From Thermomicrobiales bacterium (lineage in GTDB: Bacteria; Chloroflexota; Chloroflexia; Thermomicrobiales; CFX8), in the NCBI GenBank assembly GCA_023954495.1, contig JAMLIA010000025.1, forward strand, positions 1 through 42,262: DNA of 42,262 nucleotides, read 5' to 3'. The translations under genes were made by a program, and so were the position numbers. Below are positions 16,024 to 29,750 of this stretch, in pieces (the stretch's first letter is position 1; each line of letters starts with the position of its first letter). The notes beneath the pieces were generated by a model. It made no database searches. It was not told the DNA's origin and worked only from the letters and a program-made list of their open reading frames with translations.

Positions 16024-17185
16024 ATGAAAACAAAACGTTCGCGCTTGAGCGCTGGATGACGACGTGGGAGACGGTGCTGAGTACGACATTGCCGAGAGCG
16101 CATTTTGCCGATGTCGGTGAACGACCTGCTGGATTTAATGCCGGAGGGCGAGCGGGCGGCGACGCATGGCGCGGCTGCTTGATACACGCCCGCTATAGCG
16201 AAGCGCCGGGGTCGATTGAGCTGCGGCTTGTTGATCGCTGAGACGTACCGCGACACCGGCCCGGACGAGGTGCTGGTGACGACCGGCGCGATCGAGGCCA
16301 ACTTTCTGGCGTTCAACACGGTGCTCGATCCGGGCGACCACGTTGTCGCCGTCCATCCTGCATATCAGCAGCTGTACAGCGTGCCGCGGGCGATCGGCTG
16401 CGATGTATCGCTCTGGGAGCTACGACCGGAGAACAATTTCGCTACGATCTGAATGAGCTGGAGGCGTTGCTGCGCCCGAATACGAAGCTCATCGTCGTCA
16501 ACACTCCACACAACCCGACTGGCGCGATGCTCTCGTCCGACGATCTCGCCCGCGTGCATGAGCTGGCTGCCGAACGCGGCGGTTGGGTGCTGTGCGACGA
16601 GGCGTATCGCTGGCTGGATGTCCCCGGTGGCGATGCGTTCGCCCCGCCGGTGCGCAATCTCGGTGGGCAGGCGATCAGTGTCGGGACGTTCTCGAAGCCG
16701 TTCGGGCTACCGGGCCTGCGGATCGGCTGGCTGGCTGCGCCGGCGGAGGTCGTCGCGCGTTGCTGGTGGATGCGCGACTACATAACGCTCTCGCCCGGCA
16801 AGCTGAACGATGCGCTGGCCGCATTGGCATTCCAGCATCGCGACCGCATCACCGAGCGGACGCACCGGATTGTGGAAGCCAACCTGGCGACGGCCGAGCA
16901 GTGGTTCGCGGACAACGCCGATGTCGGTCTCGACGCCGCCGCGCGGTGGGCTGCTGGCGCTGATGCGTTACAACCTCGATATTTCATCGACCGACCTGGC
17001 CGATCGGCTTGCCGGTGAGTACAGTGTGATGCTCGCGCCGGGTGCGGTATCTGGTTACGAACACCATCTGCGCATCGGCATCGGGCAGGACCCGGCGGTC
17101 TTCGCCGAAGGACTGCGCCGCACGTCAGCCTGCTTCGCCGACCTGCGAGCGCGGGGTCGGGTTGCGATCTGGGGAGAAGGGATAG
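16024..17185 (+). pseudogene. PLP-dependent class I/II aminotransferase, multiply frameshifted
   Basis: In changing frames the DNA encodes MSVNDLLDLMPEGERAAT, RYSEAPGSIELR, LIAETYRDTGPDEVLVTTGA, DPGDHVVAVHPAYQQLYSVP, LIVVNTPHNPTGAMLSSDDL and DEAYRWLD. The PLP-lysine region GTFSKPFGLPGLRIGW follows, then the C-terminal domain to about 17185. These are the standard elements of an aspartate/alanine-type aminotransferase of about 380 residues. At least six one-base shifts are needed, concentrated in the first 250 bases. The catalytic middle (16467-16920) is open in one frame. Substrate unknown. As written it cannot be translated whole; sequence error and true decay are both possible. Confidence 0.78.
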
Positions 17186-17781: not shown

Positions 17782-18996
17782 TCAGGCGTTTCGCTGCCGC
17801 GCTGCTGGATCTGGTCGCACGCGGGTCGTTTGGCAGCATCAGCGCCGGGATCGGAATCGCGATCAGGATGACAATCGACTGCGCGCGCATCGCGGTCTGG
17901 ATGCTGAACATGTCGGCGATCGCGCCAGTGACCGGCACGCCGATCGCACCGGTGACGAAGCCCAGCCCGAGTGACCAGTCCCGAGGCGACGCCGGCGCGG
18001 CCCTGCACCGCTGCTGCGCCATGACCAGCAGGAGCGGCGCGGTCGAGGCGGCCAGCAGGCCGACCAGCGCGCCGGTCAGGAAGGCGATGCCACCGGTGAA
18101 CGGCGGTGAAGAGCAGGATCGCTGGGATCGTCGCAATCAGCGAGACGACGATGAGCGCTCGACGACCGTAGCGGTCGGCCAGCGAGCCGGATCCGAGCGT
18201 TCCGAGCGCGCTGGCGAGCGTGATCGTGGTTGCCAGGAAGCCGTAGAACGCCTCCGAATAGCCCATGTCGTCGTACCAGGTGGGGATGAATGCCTGCAGG
18301 CTGCTCATCGTCCACGAGCGCGCCATCATGACGAGGATGACGGCGGATAGCGCCAACCAGGGAATGGGAGGCAGGCCCGTCCGTCCGCGTCGCGATCCTG
18401 AGCCTTTGACGGCGATCTTGCGCATCTCGAGCAGCAGCCAGATGGCGATCGCTGTGCCCGGCACGATCATGAGCGCGAGGCCGTGGATGCCGAAGAGCGC
18501 AAGCAACCCGACGCCGATGAGCGGGCCGATGGCGAAGCCGACCGTGCCGCCGGAGGCATAGACGGACATGGCGCTGTTGCGGCGCCGGTCGTCGATGACG
18601 GCGTCCGCGTTCAGTGCTCCGAACGGGTGGAACGCGCCCGAGCCGAGCCCGGCGGCACCGGCCAGCGCGACGATCATCCAGAACTCCGGCACGATCGCGA
18701 TGGCGGCGAAGGTCACGGCTGTCCAGATCAGGGCCAGCCCGGTGAAGCGGGTGCCGTAGCGATCGGCCAGCCAGCCGAAGAGCGGCTGCGAGATCGAGCC
18801 GACGCTCGCTGTAGGCCAGCGCGACGAGCCCGACCGTCGCCAGGTCCAGGTCGAAGTCGCGCGACAGCAGCGGGAACATGACCGGCAGGAGGCCGGCGTA
18901 CAGGTCGATCGTCATATGGCCGAGGAAAAGCGTAATCAGCGGTCGATTGCGCAGGACGCTGCCCGTCGGTTCGGCTCTGGATGCCGCGAGGCTCAC
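17782..18996 (-). pseudogene. MFS transporter, fosmidomycin-resistance (Fsr) type, frameshifted
   Basis: The N-terminal piece (MSLAASRAEPTGSVLRNRPL, then HMTIDLYAGLLPVMFPLL) starts at a GTG at 18996. The main open piece gives FHPFGALNADAVIDDRRRNS and SVYASGGTVGFAIGPLIGVG, typical of Fsr-like exporters with 12 helices. The C-terminal piece carries GLGFVTGAIGVPVTGAIADM. At least three shifts are needed, but start and a TGA at 17782-17784 are in phase over 405 codons, so the indels cancel. The end lies 3 bases from the convergent DJ-1 gene. It would export a small molecule; the substrate is not determined. Confidence 0.8.
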
Positions 18997-19115: not shown

Positions 19116-19142
19116 ACCGCCCGCGTGTCACTGGCGGGCGGT
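19116..19142 (-). terminator. Hairpin overlapping the stop of glycine-rich protein 1
   Basis: A perfect 9-bp stem (ACCGCCCGC, 19116-19124, with 19134-19142) and a 9-base loop containing the stop codon at 19128-19130. Nearly the same sequence ends paralogue 2 (around 22845-22865). There the frame continues to VTRGR, so the paralogue 1 end may be frame-altered. Confidence 0.5.
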
Positions 19143-22100
19143 TACGTTCGCCAGATCGATCAGTGTCTGAACCTGCTGCGCGTTCAGTCCGTGGTTGCGC
19201 AGCGAGGTCACCAACGTTGAGTACAGGTCGAGAAGTGCGTTCCGGATACCCTGGTGGCGTCCTTCAGCCCACTGCGCCGAATCCAGGTAGTAGCGTAGCA
19301 GCGTGCAGATCGTTGGCTGCCCGACGAACTGGCAGGACAGGTTCCCCAGACTGGTGTACGTCACGTCAACGGTGAACGTCGTCGAGGCGCTGGATGAGAG
19401 TCCGGCATAGTCCGTTGCCGTTGACGAGACGGTGCGCGATCCCGCACCGAAGGTCCAGGCTGGGCCGACGATATTCGCGCAGGTCGTTGATGCGATGCCG
19501 GAAACTGCGTCAGCCGCCGTGCAGGTGATGTTGACCTGCTGATCGACCGTGTAGGTTCCGAGATTGCCGGAGTAGGTGATCGTCGGCGGTGTCAGATCGA
19601 TCTTGAGATCCGCCGATGCTGTGGTGCTGTTTCCGACCATGTCGGCGCAGGATGCACTGAGCGTGTACTGGCCTTCGATGGCGGTACTCGTCGACGATAT
19701 GCAGCTGGCGGGGTCGATTCCAGCCCCGCTATCGCTCCAGTTCCAGTTGATCGTGATCGCGCTGGTGTACCAGCCGTTCGTCCCGGCAGTGCCGCTGATT
19801 GAGGGCGATGCCGTCGGAGGTGTCTGGTCGATCTTGATCGACTTCGACTGTGGCGTCTCGACATTCCCGGCCAGGTCAACACTGAAGAATGTCAGTGTGT
19901 GGTTGCCGTCAGTCGAGATCGTGATCGGGCCGCTGTAGGTATCGCAGCTTGCCGGCGCTGCCGGTGCGCAGCCGCTGTTGTCGAGGCCAGTGTAGGTGAT
20001 GATCTGGTCGACCGGTGTGTGGTTGTCGGTGGCGCTGAGCGTGACCATGACCGGTTGGTTGGTCCAGGTGCCGGGCACGTAGCTGTTGCTGTATGACGCC
20101 GTCGTGACCGGCGGCTCCAGATCTGGCAATTCATAGATGATGACAATCAGGCCATCACCCTCGTGGACTCCGGTGCTCAAGGTGGCGATGTCGGCCGGGC
20201 CGTAGCCGCTGCCGCCACCACCGCCGAAGGTGAAGAGATCCGGAGTGACACTGCCCCCGCTACCGCCGCACCAGCCTCCGCCGCCGCCGCCGCTGCCATG
20301 TGATCCGTTAGTCGCTCCCCCAGAACCGTTGCCCGGATGTCCACTACCCACAGTGCACTCTTGGTCGCCACCGTGACCTCGATATTCTTCGACCCCAGCG
20401 AAACTGAGCCCGTCACCGCCAATGATGCCGCCGCCGTTGCCGCCGCTTGCGCTTCCTGAGTCATCAAAAGCTGGGCTGGCTGCACCACCACCGCCGCCAG
20501 CAACCAGGACGCGGTGAGCCAGGTCGTTGCCTCCAATGCGGACATCCGACGCGCCGCCGCCGCCTGCGCCAGCGCAGTTGGAGACGCCAGTCCCCGCGCC
20601 GCCGTTGCCGCCACCGTTAAAGCCGCCCGGCGTGTCCTGCGTGAAGCACGCGCCACCGTTAACGCCCTGCCCGCCGACCATGAGCGTGATCGTGCTGCCG
20701 GGCGTTAGCGGCAGAATCGCGCGTGCCTGCCCACCGAGGCCGCCTGGCGAGAGCGTTGAGCCACCAGATCCGCCATAAAGCTCGAACTGCGCTTCGGTGA
20801 TGCCCGCCGGCACCGTCCAGGTCTGCGAATCATTGATTGGATAGGCGGTGCAGATGACGGTAATGCCGGACTGCAGGCAAATCGGGGCGTTCGGGAAGTC
20901 GAAGGTTATCGTGATCAAGCCGTCGGCCAGGAGACTCCAGCCGGAGATCGCATCAGCGGGACCGTAGCTGCTGCCTCCGCCTCCGCCGTGGATCCGATTC
21001 GCTGGTGATGGGGTCAACCTGCCGCCACTACCGCCGCACCAGCCGCCACCACCACCACCGTTGCCGGACACGGTTACAGCGTCCTCGCCAGCGCTCCCGA
21101 CTCCGGGAAGTCCGCTCCCCGTCGTGCAGTCCTGATTGCCGCCCTGCCCCTGATATGCAGGATAGTCGGGGTCGGCCGGCCCGCCATCTGCCCCGGTGAA
21201 TCTGTCACCGCGGCCACCAGATGACGGCCCGAGCGTGGCATCGTCGGCGTTGGCCGCCCCGCCGCCGCCGGCGGCAACGAGCACGCGATGAGACAGATCA
21301 GTACCGCCAATGCGCACGTCGGTTGCCCCGCCGCCGCTCGCACCCGCACACTGCCCATTACCGCCGCCACCACCACCATTGAAGCCGCCCGGGGCGGCGG
21401 CGATGTCACAGTCATCGATGACATCGCCTCCGTGCCCGCCGACCATCAGGGTGATCGTATCGCCGGGTGTCACGGCCAATGTGGCACTAAGGAAGAAACC
21501 GGCACCACCACTGGCTACTGGGGTGTTGCCGCCCCGAGCACCGGAGAGCTCGAATGTCGCTTCGCTGACGCCGGCCGGCACGATCCAGCCCTGCACGGTA
21601 CCGGTGAACGGGAAGGTGCAGTTCATCTTGTTGTCGTTTGTTTGCTCGCAGGTCGCATCAATCGTCAGGGGATGGTAACTGACGAAAATGAACCCATTCC
21701 CGATTGAGGCGCTCAGTTGAAATGCCGCGTTCGCTGGTGCATAACTGCTGCCACCACCGCCGCCAAACAGAGTGTCGTCCGGAGCTATTGCGCCTCCACT
21801 ACCTCCGCACCAACCGCCGCCGCCACCGCCACTTCCATGAATGCCGTTGTTTGCACCGGTTGAACCGACGCCAGATTGCCCGCTACCGGATGTGCAATCC
21901 TGATCACCGCCATGCCCGCGATATGGTTCAGTTCCTGCGGTATATGGATGGCCGTCTTCGCCAACGAGCTCGCCACCGTTGCCACCTGCCGGGTCACCTT
22001 GTGATGCACTAATCGTGCCTGCACCACCACCTCCGGCCGCGACGAGCACGCGGTGAGACAGATCGCTACCGCCGATGCGCACATCGGAAGCCCCGCCGCC

Positions 22101-22536
22101 GCCAGCGCCGGCACAGTTGAACACGCCGAGACCGGCACCACCGTTGCCACCACCGTTAAATCCGCCACGCGGCTGCTCGTTGTCGCAGCGACCTCCGTCC
22201 TCTCCCTTTCCCCCGACCATGAGGGTGATCACGGAGCCGGGCGTTACCGGCACAGTCGCGATCAGATCTTGCGCTTTGCCGCCATTTGCGGAAACGGTGC
22301 CTCCTCCGGAGGCACCGCTCACGCGGAATGTTGCTTCAGTAACGCCGACTGGCACGATCCATGTTTGAACACTGCCGGTGTCCAAATGCACATGCAACAC
22401 TCGTGCCTTGATCCTGACAGTTCGATTCGATCGCCTGGGCGACCCGAGTCGGAAATGCTGCCAGAAGAGGAACGAGAATCAGAATCGTCACCGTTGCGAT
22501 CCAGGTCAGCCGTGCAGTCGGTGTTCCTCGCCGCAT
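19128..22536 (-). CDS. Secreted glycine-rich multidomain protein 1 (three ALK/LTK-like glycine-rich domains; one frameshift near its start)
   Basis: The N-terminal signal peptide (MRRGTPTARLTWIATVTILI, ending RVAQA) is read from 22536. One extra base near 22386 (TTTGGAC for TTTGAC) separates it from a 1090-residue open frame. In that frame: three tandem glycine-rich domains (~residues 5-255, 265-510, 520-755), each with QxWxVPxGxTEAxF, GGFNGGG, GGGGASDVRIGG, HRVLVAxGGGGA and a Cys-containing GGGGGGWCGGSGG. An OmpL47/Ig-like segment follows (~767, SNSYVPGTWTNQPV), then Ig-like repeats with IDQTPPTASPSISGT and WNWSDSGAG, and the C-terminal domain shared with its paralogues (~1010-1090). The glycine-rich part resembles the extracellular domain of ALK/LTK receptors. 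It is probably an exported surface protein; function unknown. Confidence 0.82.
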
Positions 22537-22770
22537 GTTCCCTTACCCCCACGAAGTTACGATGTGCGTCTCGTCAGGTGACGAGATACTGCTCTCAGGC
22601 CGAATAGACAGATATCCTCGAGCGCACCGTTCCATTGGAGCATCGGTGGTGTTGCCTGCTCCTCGGCAGGGCATCACTCAATATTCGATCGTTCCGCGAG
22701 ATAATGCGAGCGGAAGTATGAATGACCGCATATCAGATGTCTATATTCTGGAGAAGTGAGTTTGTGGAAA

Positions 22771-22802
22771 GACCCCCTCGCCCAGATTTGGACGAGGGGG
22801 TC
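22771..22802 (-). terminator. Intrinsic terminator of glycine-rich protein 2
   Basis: A 10-bp perfect stem (GACCCCCTCG, 22771-22780, with 22793-22802) and a 12-base loop, followed on the minus strand by TTTCC. It lies about 40 bases past the stop of paralogue 2. Confidence 0.72.
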
Positions 22803-22842
22803 GTGACTGTCATCAACGCATAACGGTGAGAGCTATCGTCTG

Positions 22843-25194
22843 TTACCGCCCGCGTGTCACTGGCGGTTGAAGGATCTGCACCAGATTGAGCAGCGTCTGC
22901 GCGTCCTGCGCGGACAGCCCGCGATTCCGCAGCGAGGTCACCATCGTCGCGTAGAGATTGAGGTAGTGCTGCTGCAGGGTGCCGACGTGGCGCCCTTCGG
23001 CCCACTCGGCCGACGCGAGATAGTAGCTGAGCGTGCTGCACCATGTTTGCTGGTTGACCATCTGGCAGGTCAATGCCGCCAGGCTGTCGTAGTCCAGTCC
23101 GATGGTGAACGTCGTTGTCGCGCTGCTTGTGTGTCCGGCGTTATCCGTTGCGGTCGCCGAGAACGTGTGGGTGCCCAGCTCGAAGCTTGCGGCCGGGCCA
23201 GTGATGTTCTGGCAGGTTGTTGAAGCGATGCCGGACGTAGCGTCGGACGCAGTGCAAGTGATCTCGATCTGATCGTCGACGCCGTAGCTGCCTGCGTTAC
23301 CAGAGTAGGTCACCGTCGGCGGTGTCTGATCGATTCTGACCACGCTGCGTCCGGCTGCAACATTGCCGGCCAGATCGCGGCAGGCTTCCATTACCTCCTG
23401 CTCGCCGTCAGTCGTGACCAGCGTTGTTGTCGGGCAGGTTGTCGGGTTGATGCCGGAGGTCGGATCAGTCCAGTTCCAGGTGACGGTCACGGGGCTGGTG
23501 TACCAGAAGTTGTCGCCCTCAGTCCCGTTGGTGGTCGGGGCGAAGGCCGGCGGTGTCTGGTCGATCTTGATCGGGACAGAGCCAGTCGCGGTATTGCCCG
23601 CCATGTCGCTGCAGTTGGCGGTGATGGTGTACTGGCCCTCAGCGAGCGCGTTCGTTACAGGTGGGCAGGAGTTTGTGCCCGACGTGGCATCGGCCCAGTT
23701 CCAGGTCACCGTGACCTGACCGACATACCAGCCGTTGTCCCCGAGTGTGCCAGAGATAGTCGGGTTTCCCGCTGGCGGTGTCTGGTCGATCTTGACCGGC
23801 ACGGATGCTTCGTAGTCGTTGCCTGCCTGGTCATAGCAGGTCGCGCTGATCGAAGCCTCCCCGTCGCTGTTCGAGGAGGAGGTGGCAGGGCATCGAGTTG
23901 TATCCAGATCGGAGAGATCGTCGGTCCAGTTCCAGGTGACGGTCACAGCGCTGGTGTACCAGCCGTTGTCGCCCTCGGTGCCGCTGATCGTGGGCGCGGC
24001 GTAGGGGTCGGTCTGGTCGATGCTGACGAGCACCGTGTTGAGCGACTCGGTGTTTCCGGCGGCATCGACGCTGAAGAACAGCACGATCGCGCCGCTCTCG
24101 GAGGGTATGGTGAACGGTCCTGTGTATACGGAGCAGCCCTGCGGCGAGGCGGGCGCGCAGAGTGGGTTGGTCAGCCCGTAGTACGTTGCCGCGACACCGC
24201 TGCCGCCGACATTGTCGGTCGCGGTCAGGGTGACGGTCACGGCCTGGTTGGTCCAGGTGCCGGGCGTGTAGCCGTTGCTGTAGGTCGCGGTTGTCGTTGG
24301 CGCAACTGTGTCGGGCGTGTCGAATGTGACGATGACCTGGCCATTGCCGGATCGAACGTCCGTCTCGAAGACGGTGCCGTCGGGGCCGAAGCCGCTGCCG
24401 CCGCCACCGCCGGTGCCTTCACCGTCGGGGGCTGTCTGGCCGCCGGAGCCGCCGCAGTAGCCACCGCCACCGCCTCCGGATCCATGGGTTGTATTACTCG
24501 CGCCGTCACCGCCAATCCCGAGTTGGCCGCTGCCGGAGGTGCAGTCCGCATTACCGCCCTGACCTCGAACGGATAGCCATTCAGTGACGTTTGGACCACC
24601 AACCAGCCCGACGAGCCCTCCGCCCGCTCCACCGTATCGAATCCCGAATTCATACACGATGATATTGACGGCACCGCCGCCACCACCAGCAACGAGGACG
24701 CGATCTGACAGCCCTGTGCCGCCGATGCGAACATCAGATGCACCACCGCCGCCTGCGCCGGGGCAGGTGGTGCCTCCGGCGTTGCCGCCGCCGTTGAAGC
24801 CACCCTGTGGTATGTGATCTCCACAGGCCTGCCCCTGATCATCAAAGATTCCGGAGCCCTGGCCGCCAACCATCACGACAATCTGGTCGCCGGACGTGAC
24901 GGAGAATGTGGCAGTCGCGCGTCCGCCCTTGCCACCGTCGTCGGCGTATCTCGCGTTTCCGCCGGATGCACCATAAGCATCAAACTGCGCCTCGGTGACG
25001 CCGTTCGGGACGGTCCAGGTTTGGGATGCGCCGGTGTAGGAGAAGGTGCAGATGGTTTGCGCGCCGGATTCCACGCAGTCAGGATCGGCAGCCTCTGCGA
25101 CCCGCGCAGGTAGCGTGGTCAGTAACGGCGCGACCATCAGGATCGCTCCGAGAGTTATCCAGATGCGCCGTGCGCCAATCACGGATCGTCTCAT
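22843..25194 (-). CDS. Secreted glycine-rich multidomain protein 2
   Basis: A 783-residue protein with a signal peptide (MRRSVIGARRIWITLGAILM, ending RVAEA). The start is supported by GAGGTGGTGGGA just before ATG 25192-25194. It has one ALK/LTK-like glycine-rich domain (~48-288), with SQTWTVPNGVTEAQFDAYG, GGGGASDVRIGG, RVLVAGGGGGA and YCGGSGGQ. An OmpL47/Ig-like segment (~301, SNGYTPGTWTNQAV) is followed by three closely similar Ig-like repeats (~391, 468, 541), each IDQT(D/P)P, then NGWYTS or similar and VTVTWNWTD. A further segment (~623, TPPTVTYSGNAG) precedes the C-terminal domain (~700-783, LTCQMVNQQTWCSTLSYYL, AEWAEGRHVG). It is fully open, with its own terminator. Probably a secreted or surface-bound structural or adhesive protein. 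Confidence 0.88.
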   Translation of the reverse strand: MRRSVIGARRIWITLGAILMVAPLLTTLPARVAEAADPDCVESGAQTICTFSYTGASQTWTVPNGVTEAQFDAYGASGGNARYADDGGKGGRATATFSVTSGDQIVVMVGGQGSGIFDDQGQACGDHIPQGGFNGGGNAGGTTCPGAGGGGASDVRIGGTGLSDRVLVAGGGGGAVNIIVYEFGIRYGGAGGGLVGLVGGPNVTEWLSVRGQGGNADCTSGSGQLGIGGDGASNTTHGSGGGGGGYCGGSGGQTAPDGEGTGGGGGSGFGPDGTVFETDVRSGNGQVIVTFDTPDTVAPTTTATYSNGYTPGTWTNQAVTVTLTATDNVGGSGVAATYYGLTNPLCAPASPQGCSVYTGPFTIPSESGAIVLFFSVDAAGNTESLNTVLVSIDQTDPYAAPTISGTEGDNGWYTSAVTVTWNWTDDLSDLDTTRCPATSSSNSDGEASISATCYDQAGNDYEASVPVKIDQTPPAGNPTISGTLGDNGWYVGQVTVTWNWADATSGTNSCPPVTNALAEGQYTITANCSDMAGNTATGSVPIKIDQTPPAFAPTTNGTEGDNFWYTSPVTVTWNWTDPTSGINPTTCPTTTLVTTDGEQEVMEACRDLAGNVAAGRSVVRIDQTPPTVTYSGNAGSYGVDDQIEITCTASDATSGIASTTCQNITGPAASFELGTHTFSATATDNAGHTSSATTTFTIGLDYDSLAALTCQMVNQQTWCSTLSYYLASAEWAEGRHVGTLQQHYLNLYATMVTSLRNRGLSAQDAQTLLNLVQILQPPVTRGR

Positions 25195-25415
25195 TCCCAC
25201 CACCTCATACAGCCTAATACTCGTCATAACGTACGAATCGCTCGACCGCGACCGCCGCCGCGTGCGGGCGGTGTCACCGAGTCAGGCATTGCGCTCCGGG
25301 GAGTGCAGGCGAAAGTATGAGTGTGTGTATTGCCACGGTCAAGGAATCGTGAAGCGGATTCAGCCGGCAGCGTCATGCAACGCAGATGAGCATACGAGGG
25401 AACAGTGCGACGAGA

Positions 25416-25457
25416 GGCGAGCGCCCCATTCCCGGTTCTCGGAATGGAGCGCTCGCC
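25416..25457 (-). terminator. Long hairpin downstream of glycine-rich protein 3
   Basis: GGCGAGCGC (25416-25424) pairs with GCGCTCGCC (25449-25457), and CCATTCC pairs with GGAATGG inside, separated by one C/A mismatch, with an 8-base loop. It lies about 30 bases past the stop at 25490. There is no T-run, so it may terminate poorly or protect the 3' end. Confidence 0.6.
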
Positions 25458-25489
25458 AGTACCCGAACCGTTTCAGGCGGCGGGGAGTG

Positions 25490-27145
25490 TCAGCGTCTTG
25501 ACGGATAGAACAGAGCCGCTGTGTCGATGAGGAATTGAGCCTGCTCGCTAGTCAGGATGCGACCACTGAGCGCCTTGGCCATCGAGGAGTAGAGATTGAG
25601 GTGATGCTGTTGCAGCAAGCCGATGTGGCGTCCCTCCGCCCATTCGGCCGATGCCAGGTTGTAGTTCAGCGCGTTGCATATCGTCCGCTGGGTGACGAGC
25701 TGACAGGTCAGGTTCGCCAGACTGTCGTAGGAGACACCGACGGTAAAGGCGGTTGAGTCGCTGGCGACGTTTCCGGCCAGGTCAGTCGCGGTGGCTGTGT
25801 AACTGTGCGTCCCGAGCCCGAAACTCCAGGCCGGACCGCTGATGTTCTGGCAGGTCGTGTTGGAAATACCGGAAAGACTATCGGTCGCCGTGCAGGTGAT
25901 GTCGATCTGCTGATCGACGCGGTACGTACCGGCGTTGCCCGAATAGTTGACAGTCGGGTCCGTCAGATCGATGTTGATCGTTGCGTGCTGGTGGTCAACA
26001 TTTCCGGAGCTATCCAGACCGAGGTAGTCGAAGGCATGAGTGCCCTCGGTCGAAATGGTGATTGGATTGAAGTACTGGGCGCAACGGGTGACACCGTGGT
26101 TGGTGCAGTCGATATCGTCGACGCCGTAGAAGAAGTACAGTTGATCACTCGGGGTGCGGTTATCCGTTCCGGAGAGCGTGACCGTGACCGGCTGGTTGCT
26201 CCAGGTGCCGGGGACATAGCCATTGCTATATGTTGCTGTGGTCGTTGGTGGAGTTTCATCGCCGGCATTGAATCTGACGACGACCTTGCCGTCGCCCGAG
26301 TTCACGCCGGTCTCCATGGGGACTCCGCCTGGGCTATGGCCGCTGCCGCCACCGCCGCCGTACCAGTCACCGTTGCTGCCGATATGGCCGCCCGCGCCGC
26401 CACACCAGCCGCCGCCGCCACCACCGCCACTGCCGGAAATCGTGCTTGCGCCGGCGCTGCCGACGCCTGCCTGCCCGCTACCCTGCGAACAATCCTGATT
26501 GCCGCCGCGACCGCCGTAGGCGTTTCCGTTATAGACATAGCCGCCACGCTCGCCGACATCCCCGCCGCCAGCGCCGCCGGTTGCGTTGCCCCAGAAGGCT
26601 GCCAGGTTCGCAGCGCCGCCACCGCCACCGGCGACGATGACACGGCTGGCGAGATCGGTTCCACCGATGCGGATATCCGAGGCCCCGCCGCCGCCGCCGC
26701 CGGGGCAAGGTGGTGAACCTGTGGGCGTGCCGCTGTTGCCACCGCCGTTGAATCCACCAGTGGTGAAGGCTAGCTGGCAGGTGGTCAGATTCGTCTCACC
26801 GGCGTTCTGGCCTTTTCCGCCCACCATGATCGTGATTGTGTCGCCGGGCGTCACCAGCAAAGCTGCCTTCGTGTGACCGCCTTTGCCTCCGTAGATGAAC
26901 GTTCCAATGTTTCCGCCGCTGGCTCCATAGACATCGAATTGCGCGGTTGTCACCCAGTCCGGCACGATCCAGGTCTGCGCGGCACCGGTATACGAATAGG
27001 TACATTCAATGTCATTTCCGACGTCTTCGCAGGAGGGCTCCGCCGCTCGTGCGATCTGTGCCGGTAGTGCCGTGAACACCGGCGCGATACCAAGGAGGAG
27101 ACTGACGACGATCCAGATGACTCGCGTTCCTGTAGATGCCCGCAT
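25490..27145 (-). CDS. Secreted glycine-rich multidomain protein 3
   Basis: A 551-residue protein. The signal peptide begins MRASTGTRVIWIVVSLLLGI and ends QIARA; GAAGGA lies upstream of the ATG at 27143-27145. It has one glycine-rich domain (~52-287), with AQTWIVPDWVTTAQFDVYG, GGFNGGGNSG, GGGGASDIRIGG and GGGGWCGGAGG. One OmpL47/Ig-like segment follows (~302, SNGYVPGTWSNQPVTVTLS), then IDLTDPTVNYSG (~393) and the C-terminal domain (~470-551, LTCQLVTQRTICNALNYNL, AEWAEGRHIG). It lacks the WNW-type Ig repeats of its neighbours, making it the minimal architecture of the three. It is first in the tandem array. Function unknown; location outside the membrane is inferred from the signal peptide. 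Confidence 0.87.
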   Translation of the reverse strand: MRASTGTRVIWIVVSLLLGIAPVFTALPAQIARAAEPSCEDVGNDIECTYSYTGAAQTWIVPDWVTTAQFDVYGASGGNIGTFIYGGKGGHTKAALLVTPGDTITIMVGGKGQNAGETNLTTCQLAFTTGGFNGGGNSGTPTGSPPCPGGGGGGASDIRIGGTDLASRVIVAGGGGGAANLAAFWGNATGGAGGGDVGERGGYVYNGNAYGGRGGNQDCSQGSGQAGVGSAGASTISGSGGGGGGGWCGGAGGHIGSNGDWYGGGGGSGHSPGGVPMETGVNSGDGKVVVRFNAGDETPPTTTATYSNGYVPGTWSNQPVTVTLSGTDNRTPSDQLYFFYGVDDIDCTNHGVTRCAQYFNPITISTEGTHAFDYLGLDSSGNVDHQHATINIDLTDPTVNYSGNAGTYRVDQQIDITCTATDSLSGISNTTCQNISGPAWSFGLGTHSYTATATDLAGNVASDSTAFTVGVSYDSLANLTCQLVTQRTICNALNYNLASAEWAEGRHIGLLQQHHLNLYSSMAKALSGRILTSEQAQFLIDTAALFYPSRR

Positions 27146-27374
27146 GGTCGTTGTCGTCCTTCCGTGAGACCGTACTGCTGCATGCTGCCTCATTCGGGCG
27201 GCAATGAAGGTGCGCTCGTACAAGAAATCGGGCGCGTCCGCATTTCTGCATGGCGATGTCTGACGTTGCGTACTCCGCATCAATCCTAGAGTGATGTCGC
27301 CGAGCGCGCGTCCAGAAACTCTATAAAAAGCAGAAGCTGATGCAGCTCGCCTTTGTACAGAATCTCAATATGCG

Positions 27375-29750
27375 TTAGTGATGGGCGTCGATCGGAGGTG
27401 AGCTATCGGGGACGTCGTTCATGGCCGCCAGCGCATCCGCCACCTGCCAGCGCGAGCGGACGTCGAGCTTGGCGAGGATGCGGTGGACGTGGACGCCGAC
27501 GGTCGCGGTTGCGATGTGCAGTGCCTCGGCAATCTCGCGGTCGCGAAAGCCGCGGGTGAGCAGCTCGGCGACCTCGCGCTCACGAGGCGTGAGCGTTGAC
27601 GTTGGCGTATCGCTCACCCGCTTGCTGTTCGCCGTTGCGTCTGGTTGCGCGGTGAATCCCTCGATGACCTGCTCGATGGTCATTGCCTGTCCGTCAGCCC
27701 AGGCTTTCTCGAACTGGTCCTTGCCGAGCCGTTCTCGTGCGCTGGCGATCTCCGCCTCGGTTCCGACGGGACCGATCGGCTCGATGACCTCCTGAAGCGT
27801 GGCGCCCAGTCCACGAGCGAGGCCGAGGAGCTGCGCGGCGCGGCGCGGCTCTCCCGATGTGTTGGCGACGGCCGCCAGCAGCTGCAGGTCGTAAATGACG
27901 AACCAGCGATTGCTGACAGAGTAATGAAGGGAGAGTGCTTCGCACAGGCGCTCATTTGCACCTGACAGATTGCCGGAATCCAGATTGACCATGCCGAGCA
28001 TCGTCTGCGCAATGGCGATGAAGCGCGTATTGCCCTGCTCGCGATACATCGCCAGGCATTCTTCGAGATACTGGCTGGCTCGATCGAAGTCGCCGCGATC
28101 CTTCCAGGTAATGCCGGCTTCGAGGAGCGCGTAGGCGGTCGCGTCCGGATCGCCGATCTCGCGGCTGAGCGTCAGGCTCTGCTCGGCGAGGTCGGATGAG
28201 CGGTCCAGCCGTCTGGTAATGCGTGCTTCCATCGCCAGCTCGCTCAGCGCGATGGCGATGCCGCGTCGATCGTCCAGCTCGCGGAAGAGCGCGAGGGCCT
28301 GCGTATGGAACTCCTCGGCGCTGGCCAATGCGCGCTGCTGGTGGGCGAGGCGGCCGGCAGCGTGGAGCGCGCGGGCGCGATGTTGCAGCCCAGCGGTGCT
28401 GCGGTCTCCGTTGGTCGCCTGCAGCGCAAGCGTCAGCCAGTACTGGCCTTCGGTCAGATGATCGTGCGCCTCCCAGAAGGGGAACAGCGCAACGACGAAC
28501 TGCTGCAGCGCAGCGGTGGGATCATGGTCCGCGGCCCAGCGCAGCGCCGCGCGCAGATTGTCGGCTTCGCGCTCCAGCCTGGCGAGCCAGTCGCGTTGCT
28601 CCGGACCGGACAGGTGCGGCTCGGCTTCGCGGGCGAGGTCGCCGAAGTAGCGCGCGTGCTGCGCCCGGATCGCCTCAGCTTCGGTGCTCGTTGCCAACCG
28701 CCAGGCGCTGTACTGCCGCACTGGCTCCAGCATGCGGTACCAGGCCACCGGGCCATCGCGATCGACGATGATCAGCGACTTGTCCACGAGCTGACTCAGG
28801 ATGTGCAGGACATCGTCGGGTGAGATGGCGGCGTGCCCCGTGTCCGGGTGGGTGCCGCTCGCGATCGCCTCGGCGGCCTGAATGTCGCAGCCGCCGGTGA
28901 AGACGGACAGGCGCTGAAAGACAACCTGCTCCGGTGGCGAAAGGAGCGCGTAGCTCCAGTCGAGTGTCGCCTGCAGTGTTTGCTGGCGGTCCTGCGCGGT
29001 TCGATTGCCGCCGGTTAGCAGGCGGAGGCCGTCGTCGAGCCGACTGAGGATCTGCTCGACGGTCAGCACCTGGCAGCGCGCAGCCGCCAGCTCAATTGCC
29101 ATCGGGATGCCGGCCAGTCGCTCGCAAATGGCCGCGATCGTCGTCGCGTTCTGCGGCCCGAGCGCAAAATCCGCCGCCACATCCTGAGCGCGCTCGACAA
29201 ACAGCTGGACAGCAGGTGAGCGGGCGATGCCCTCCATGTCCGCGACCGTTTCGGTTGGCAGTGGCAACGGCTGTATGCGAACCTGCCGCTCTCCGGCGAT
29301 GCGGAGCGGCTCACGACTGGTTGCCATGATGCGCAGTGTCGGGCAGGTTGCCAGCAGTTGATCGGACAATCGCGCGCAGGAATCGATCAGGTGCTCGCAG
29401 TTGTCGAGGACGAGCAGCGCCGAGCGCGGGCGCAGAAAGCTGGCGAGCGTCTCGAACGCGGAGACATCGCGGGCCGGCAGGATGCCCAGCGCTGCGACCA
29501 CAAACGTTTCGAGCAGCGCCTCGTCGGTGATGGCGGCCAGCTCGACGAGCCAGATGCCGTCACTAAATTCGGCCGCCAGCGTCCGCGCCGTCGCCAGCGC
29601 CAGATGCGTTTTGCCACAGCCTCCCAGACCGGTCAGCGTGATCATGCGCGCGGGATTGGTCAGGATGAAGTCCCGAATTGTGCCCAACTCGGCGGTACGC
29701 CCGATCGTCGATGACCGCGACGTTGGCAACCTGTAGGATGACGCGCTCAC
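27375..29750 (-). CDS. NB-ARC/TPR LuxR-family transcriptional regulator
   Basis: A 791-residue STAND-type regulator. The NTPase domain has Walker A GLGGCGKT (~residue 42), Walker B LLVLDNCEH and ATSREPL. A helical arm (~250-400) and TPR-like repeats (~430-640, for example ASAEEFHTQALALFRELDD) follow. A C-terminal LuxR helix-turn-helix begins at TLTPREREVAELLTRG (~730-785). Such proteins hold ADP at rest and oligomerise with ATP when a ligand binds the repeats. The start is unclear: GTG 29750 has no good ribosome-binding site, and another frame encodes MRQFPVETLVRERVRMPLSE just upstream (from 29805), so a frameshift may hide a longer N-terminus. It lies beside the glycine-rich gene array, but a regulatory link is speculation. 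Confidence 0.87.
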   Translation of the reverse strand: MSASSYRLPTSRSSTIGRTAELGTIRDFILTNPARMITLTGLGGCGKTHLALATARTLAAEFSDGIWLVELAAITDEALLETFVVAALGILPARDVSAFETLASFLRPRSALLVLDNCEHLIDSCARLSDQLLATCPTLRIMATSREPLRIAGERQVRIQPLPLPTETVADMEGIARSPAVQLFVERAQDVAADFALGPQNATTIAAICERLAGIPMAIELAAARCQVLTVEQILSRLDDGLRLLTGGNRTAQDRQQTLQATLDWSYALLSPPEQVVFQRLSVFTGGCDIQAAEAIASGTHPDTGHAAISPDDVLHILSQLVDKSLIIVDRDGPVAWYRMLEPVRQYSAWRLATSTEAEAIRAQHARYFGDLAREAEPHLSGPEQRDWLARLEREADNLRAALRWAADHDPTAALQQFVVALFPFWEAHDHLTEGQYWLTLALQATNGDRSTAGLQHRARALHAAGRLAHQQRALASAEEFHTQALALFRELDDRRGIAIALSELAMEARITRRLDRSSDLAEQSLTLSREIGDPDATAYALLEAGITWKDRGDFDRASQYLEECLAMYREQGNTRFIAIAQTMLGMVNLDSGNLSGANERLCEALSLHYSVSNRWFVIYDLQLLAAVANTSGEPRRAAQLLGLARGLGATLQEVIEPIGPVGTEAEIASARERLGKDQFEKAWADGQAMTIEQVIEGFTAQPDATANSKRVSDTPTSTLTPREREVAELLTRGFRDREIAEALHIATATVGVHVHRILAKLDVRSRWQVADALAAMNDVPDSSPPIDAHH

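Follow-up and report, generated by a model that had tools for sequence, protein, structure and literature searches.

A ligand of the ALK glycine-rich domain is known in animals, and the domain has a receptor-binding counterpart in the fiber tips of phages, among them S16 gp38, in which TNF-like and glycine-rich domains are combined. To our knowledge, no function is known for the domain in bacterial exoproteins. Such exoproteins have been found already, including one of similar plan from Peribacillus; an array in which the dosage of the domain varies and its scaffold carries hypervariable loops is something we did not find elsewhere. Here we analyze an array of this kind on a 42,262-nucleotide stretch of a Thermomicrobiales bacterium (GCA_023954495.1, contig JAMLIA010000025.1), which we call the window. 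We refer to its three genes and their products as P1, P2, and P3, and to the ALK/LTK-type glycine-rich domain (PF12810) as the GRD. With a probability of about 0.55, we interpret the array as a lineage-specific tandem family of Sec-exported proteins, surface-associated or released, with a putative binding (adhesin-like) role.

A whole-genome profile search finds exactly five copies of PF12810, all within the array (79-88 bits, E 5e-22 to 1e-24 per genome; the curated cut-off is 24.5 bits), and 0/14 control genomes have a match. The ORF listing places the genes in three consecutive minus-strand open reading frames, P1 at 19128-22400, P2 at 22843-25227, and P3 at 25490-27283, which confirms the three adjacent paralogues of the preliminary description at the coordinates it gave. 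Plausible starts are the ATG at 27145, its upper coordinate, for P3 and that at 25194 for P2; a purine-rich stretch lies upstream of each, and the start of P3 is preceded by the Shine-Dalgarno-like GGAAGGA.

Pfam and NCBIfam assign 3, 1, and 1 GRDs and 1, 3, and 0 immunoglobulin-like (Ig) repeats of the WNW type to P1, P2, and P3, respectively, with one OmpL47-type and one HYR-like Ig in every protein. The GRD and WNW counts are exactly those first proposed, and the GRD units, then put at about 240 residues, measure 231-239 aa. The "Ig-like segments" of that description are present as well, and are actually of three kinds: OmpL47-type (NF047446), Big_13-like WNW repeats, and HYR-like.

All domains lie on the minus strand. 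From its ATG, P3 (25490-27145, 551 aa) comprises a GRD (26255-27043), an OmpL47-type Ig (25955-26251; 34.1 bits, below the cut-off of 40), an HYR-like Ig (25730-25954; 17.7 bits, below the cut-off of 21.7, and a beta-sandwich in the model discussed below), and a C-terminal helical domain (25493-25729). P2 (22843-25227, likely start 25194) comprises a GRD (24307-25089), an OmpL47-type Ig (24004-24303; 67.8 bits for the whole protein, above the cut-off), three WNW-type repeats of 78, 75, and 76 aa (23317-24003; Big_13, 47.7 bits for the whole protein), an HYR-like Ig (23092-23316), and a C-terminal helical domain (22864-23091; 57% identity with its P3 counterpart). In the body of P1 (19128-22400), GRDs a (21660-22379), b (20886-21659), and c (20118-20888) are followed by an OmpL47-type Ig (19815-20114; 53.3 bits, again above the cut-off), a single WNW-type repeat (19584-19814), an HYR-like Ig (19359-19583), and a C-terminal helical domain (19146-19358; 51% identity with its P3 counterpart). 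The last Ig and the C-terminal region are 55-60% identical among the three proteins, with the last ~75 residues kept in all of them, so that the C-terminal domain is indeed common to the family.

The GRD is predicted to fold much as in ALK and LTK. Specifically, an AlphaFold2 model of the P3 GRD, made with eight relatives, reaches a pLDDT of 86.9 and a pTM of 0.87, and consists of a TNF-like beta-sandwich carrying a polyglycine-helix lobe, as in the PF12810 ligand-binding region of ALK/LTK. With Foldseek, the first 21 PDB matches of this model are all ALK/LTK ectodomains (E 2.8e-9 to 3.8e-5, probability 1.00), and the next are the cyanophage Pam3 fiber and a mycobacteriophage tail tip; viral predicted structures (BFVD) match it with TMq up to 0.72. 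The ALK/LTK-like domain recognized from the letters is thus upheld by profile, prediction, and structure search, and the model is that of a confidently folded domain and not of a disordered, low-complexity stretch.

We also compared the alignment columns of six GRDs of the genus (P1 a, b, and c, P2, P3, and the one of a sister species). In the glycine lobe, identity is 99% for the 48 columns that consist mostly of glycine and 28% for the remaining columns, its loops; the non-glycine columns of the beta-sandwich lie at 49% (permutation P < 1e-4). Insertions and deletions are located in the loops, which vary freely in sequence and length, and four cysteines are invariant in each GRD. A conserved stem with a variable tip has been linked to receptor recognition in Pam3 gp24 (PMC9608196). 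Because the scaffold is fixed and the loops are hypervariable, as in phage receptor-binding tips, we infer by analogy that recognition by the GRD would take place at its loops.

The family has a narrow distribution, PF12810 being found in 2 of 61 close relatives, both of this genus, and in 7 of 400 genomes of a phylum sample. The one other species of the genus that was compared has a single GRD gene, next to the same MFS gene. Its product of 634 aa has one GRD, an OmpL47-type Ig, a WNW repeat, an HYR-like Ig, and the same tail, and the MFS gene follows. The main part of the MFS protein is 86% identical between the two species, and the GRD proteins only about 45-50%. The upstream boundary of the array differs between them, because nothing in the window convincingly matches the sequence upstream of the single sister gene (L013:1-799). 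With two species compared and a sister genome ~89% complete, the difference in copy number may be read as gain in the species of the window or as loss in the sister. A single-protein scan of genome contigs returned no relatives, and an alignment-based scan only three distant GRD proteins. Elsewhere in the class, two loci of one genome (L019 and L025 of G130) encode GRD proteins of an odd composition: a PqqD domain at the N terminus (PF05402; the L025 protein scores 45.4 bits) precedes a twin-arginine-like signal, behind which the GRD follows.

Domain trees suggest a mosaic history. The three GRDs of P1 cluster together (support 86/92), which is consistent with duplication within the gene, and the GRD of P3 groups with that of the sister (83/88). 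In the OmpL47 domain tree it is P2 that joins the sister, and P1 joins P3 (96/95). Approximately unbiased (AU) tests reject a grouping of P3 with the sister for the OmpL47 domain (P = 0.028) and nearly reject one of P2 with the sister for the GRD (P = 0.056); the trees of the WNW repeats and C-terminal domains do not resolve. Identity between the DNA repeats of the array does not exceed 83%, over 41 nt, and the GRDs share 50-62% identity with each other, so the expansion is old and not recent. As such, the view that this is a fast-evolving family with gain and loss of domains is borne out by the single sister gene, its 45-50% identity against 86% for the MFS protein, and the conflicting trees, while the recombination between GC-rich repeats that had been invoked for it is not supported as a recent event between near-identical copies, given the divergence of both repeats and domains.

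A model of the P3 stalk and tail, made from only three sequences (pLDDT 65.6), has two beta-sandwiches of confident to moderate quality and a helical tail of low confidence. The sandwiches match surface and adhesion proteins (the Deinococcus HPI S-layer, RbmA, SraP, and an RTX adhesin), and also cadherins; because cadherins match as well, we read them as evidence of a generic Ig-like stalk and not of a function. A sequence search of the PDB with P2 gave nothing useful. Overall, each unit is predicted to have an N-terminal module with the ALK/LTK ligand-binding fold, a stalk with 2 to 5 Ig-like beta-sandwiches, and a helical C-terminal domain.

None of the three tails has a Pfam match above cut-off. 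In particular, FIMAH (PF22888, cut-off 24.8 bits) is not matched at the array, and a family search of the same genome gave chance-level matches only. By tblastn, the last Ig and tail match exoproteins of Paenibacillus and Euzebya whose own tails resemble FIMAH, and a profile comparison of the C-terminal domain with FIMAH gives scores of 28-32, whereas 30 column shuffles reach 16 at most. The domain is thus probably a remote relative, FIMAH-like, and we do not claim membership. A C-terminal domain of this kind also ends a family 20 glycosylhydrolase, and from position and company only we infer a role in attachment. Literature searches on FIMAH and on PF12810 in bacteria found nothing usable.

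Inspection and hydropathy reveal clear, in-frame Sec-type signal peptides in P2 and P3. After the signal, neither has a hydrophobic 19-mer over 1.35, so no transmembrane segment is seen, and the LPXTG motif with C-terminal transmembrane segment of sortase-anchored proteins was not found in either. A signal peptide had been reported for every member of the array, and this is correct for two of the three. In P1, the signal peptide starts at ATG 22536 (MRRGTPTARLTWIATVTILILVPLLAAFPTRVAQA) and, with the first mature residues (22384-22536, minus strand), is read in frame -2; the body with its three GRDs is in frame -3, the switch lying near 22384.

If the array encodes exported binding proteins, the GRD loops would form a recognition tip, as in phage fiber tips, the Ig repeats would set the distance of this tip from the base, the number of GRDs would set avidity, and the C-terminal domain would serve as an anchor on the cell or on exopolysaccharide. 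The copies would have diversified by old tandem duplication and by duplication within genes, giving the three GRDs of P1 and the three WNW repeats of P2, and domains were probably exchanged between paralogues. Several observations count against this interpretation. The TM-score of the P3 GRD model to ALK is just 0.43-0.48 (root-mean-square deviation 9-13 Å across both lobes); it falls below 0.5 because the whole two-lobe superposition is poor, which leaves the relative placement of the lobes unsure. In addition, the signal peptide and the body of P1 are, as sequenced, in different frames, a known cell-wall anchor was not found, the FIMAH link falls below the Pfam cut-off, the conflict between domain trees is modest at the AU values given above, and the comparison within the genus rests on two species.

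Among the alternatives, the GRDs and Ig repeats could polymerize to form a surface layer or an extracellular matrix, domain number tuning packing and not recognition. The matches of the Ig models to the HPI S-layer and to RbmA, a biofilm scaffold, would fit this, as would the secretion signals of P2 and P3 and a possible stacking of polyglycine lobes. Packing interfaces, however, are not expected to be hypervariable in sequence and length as these loops are; moreover, one copy suffices in the sister species, and Pfam found no S-layer anchoring domain of known type. We consider a structural role unlikely.

More doubtful still is a role accessory to polysaccharide use, in which the GRD would bind a glycan and the C-terminal domain, as in exoenzymes of Paenibacillus and Arthrobacter, would attach to wall or substrate. 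The tblastn matches of the C-terminal and HYR region to Paenibacillus exoprotein tails, the glycosylhydrolase ending, and the profile scores well above those of shuffled columns all speak for such a role, but Pfam finds no catalytic domain in P1-P3 and no carbohydrate-active genes are seen among the neighbors that it identifies.

About equally tentative is an extension of the binding-protein interpretation, according to which the array is a repertoire of recognition proteins. Hypervariable loops on a fixed polyglycine scaffold would be swapped and multiplied between paralogues, in a cellular analogue of the receptor-binding tips of phages, and would serve kin recognition, adhesion to prey or host, or the trapping of phages or glycans.

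Least probable is a decaying array, with P1 and perhaps the whole set becoming pseudogenes after selection was lost and the variation being drift: the out-of-frame signal of P1 and the broken frame of the adjacent MFS gene would agree with it, but P1 is open over 1090 codons and retains nearly all glycine columns, neither P2 nor P3 is disrupted, the scaffold and the loops are under sharply different constraint, and frame breaks in two unrelated genes suggest sequencing error.

The MFS transporter gene (18168-18996, minus strand), which serves as the synteny anchor downstream of the array, has a base near 18805 that the sister gene lacks, which breaks its frame. Taken together, its break and that of P1 suggest that this stretch contains sequence errors or that its genes are decaying; error is plausible because two such breaks occur in unrelated genes within 4 kb. 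At 16467-17018 of the window, a match to aminotransferase class I/II covers just profile positions 146-260 of 361 in its frame, and for this reason that gene may be broken or frame-shifted too.

A 13-bp hairpin follows the P3 stop (25420-25453, minus strand; the whole stretch folds at -39 kcal/mol) as a possible transcription boundary, and a 14-bp hairpin and then TCTTTCC follow that of P2 (22771-22802, minus strand), a probable terminator. Because both hairpins are strong, the genes may be separate transcription units. A scan for promoter and terminator consensus sequences gave no more matches than shuffled sequence, so we claim no promoters. Upstream of P3 lies a regulator (27375-29750, minus strand), earlier labeled NB-ARC/LuxR; a GerE/TPR/AAA (LuxR-type) regulator fits better, the NB-ARC match being below cut-off. 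No orthologue was detected in the ~89% complete sister genome (best match 29%), so a regulatory coupling to the array is not supported and the linkage is at most putative. A second exoprotein of the same genome (1685 aa, Ig/HYR repeats, a weakly similar tail, and no GRD) is likewise encoded immediately downstream of a LuxR/AAA-type regulator, in a genome with only 16 GerE matches; this recurrent pairing (L014:7168-12225 and L014:12666-15752) was noticed after the fact. No phage genes were recognized among the neighbors scanned, and a prophage or plasmid origin was rejected, the phage and plasmid searches having matched only Ig and tail parts.

Many of the phage proteins with the GRD fold among the BFVD matches are named "receptor protein-tyrosine kinase", which probably reflects merely the similarity of the GRD to ALK; the present comparison would correct such names for kinase-free GRD proteins. 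Beyond this, with five GRDs at a single locus, a sister locus that has only one copy, and a clear split between scaffold and loops, the array is a concrete system for finding out what the GRDs of bacteria bind and whether specificity depends on the diversity of the loops.

Among known systems, the Leptospira proteins that have OmpL47-type domains (NF047446) share just this domain with the array: there is one such Ig per protein, above cut-off in P1 and P2, and the OmpL47 model NF047441 scores far below its cut-off. The FIMAH tails of Paenibacillus and Arthrobacter exoproteins are likewise C-terminal and helical with a similar profile, but the array tails have an extra segment, SAEWAEGRH, between helices and are remote relatives at best. 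The Peribacillus simplex exoprotein (WP_061466417.1) has one PF12810 domain and then Ig-like repeats homologous to those of the array; it differs in its repeat set, in having no paralogue array, and in that the C-terminal helical domain is not seen. ALK/LTK receptors (PDB 7LRZ, 7NX1, and 7LIR) belong to the same Pfam family and are retrieved first by predicted fold, but the array proteins are without kinase (by Pfam), transmembrane helix, or EGF-like domain, and they can carry GRDs in tandem in one chain. Finally, phage fiber tips with TNF-like and glycine-rich domains match the GRD model both through the Pam3 fiber and through many BFVD proteins. Unlike them, the array proteins are cellular, bear signals, and carry their GRDs on a stalk of Ig domains, and no trimeric shaft, chaperone, or prophage is seen; like the tip of Pam3 gp24, they combine conserved polyglycine stems with variable loop tips.

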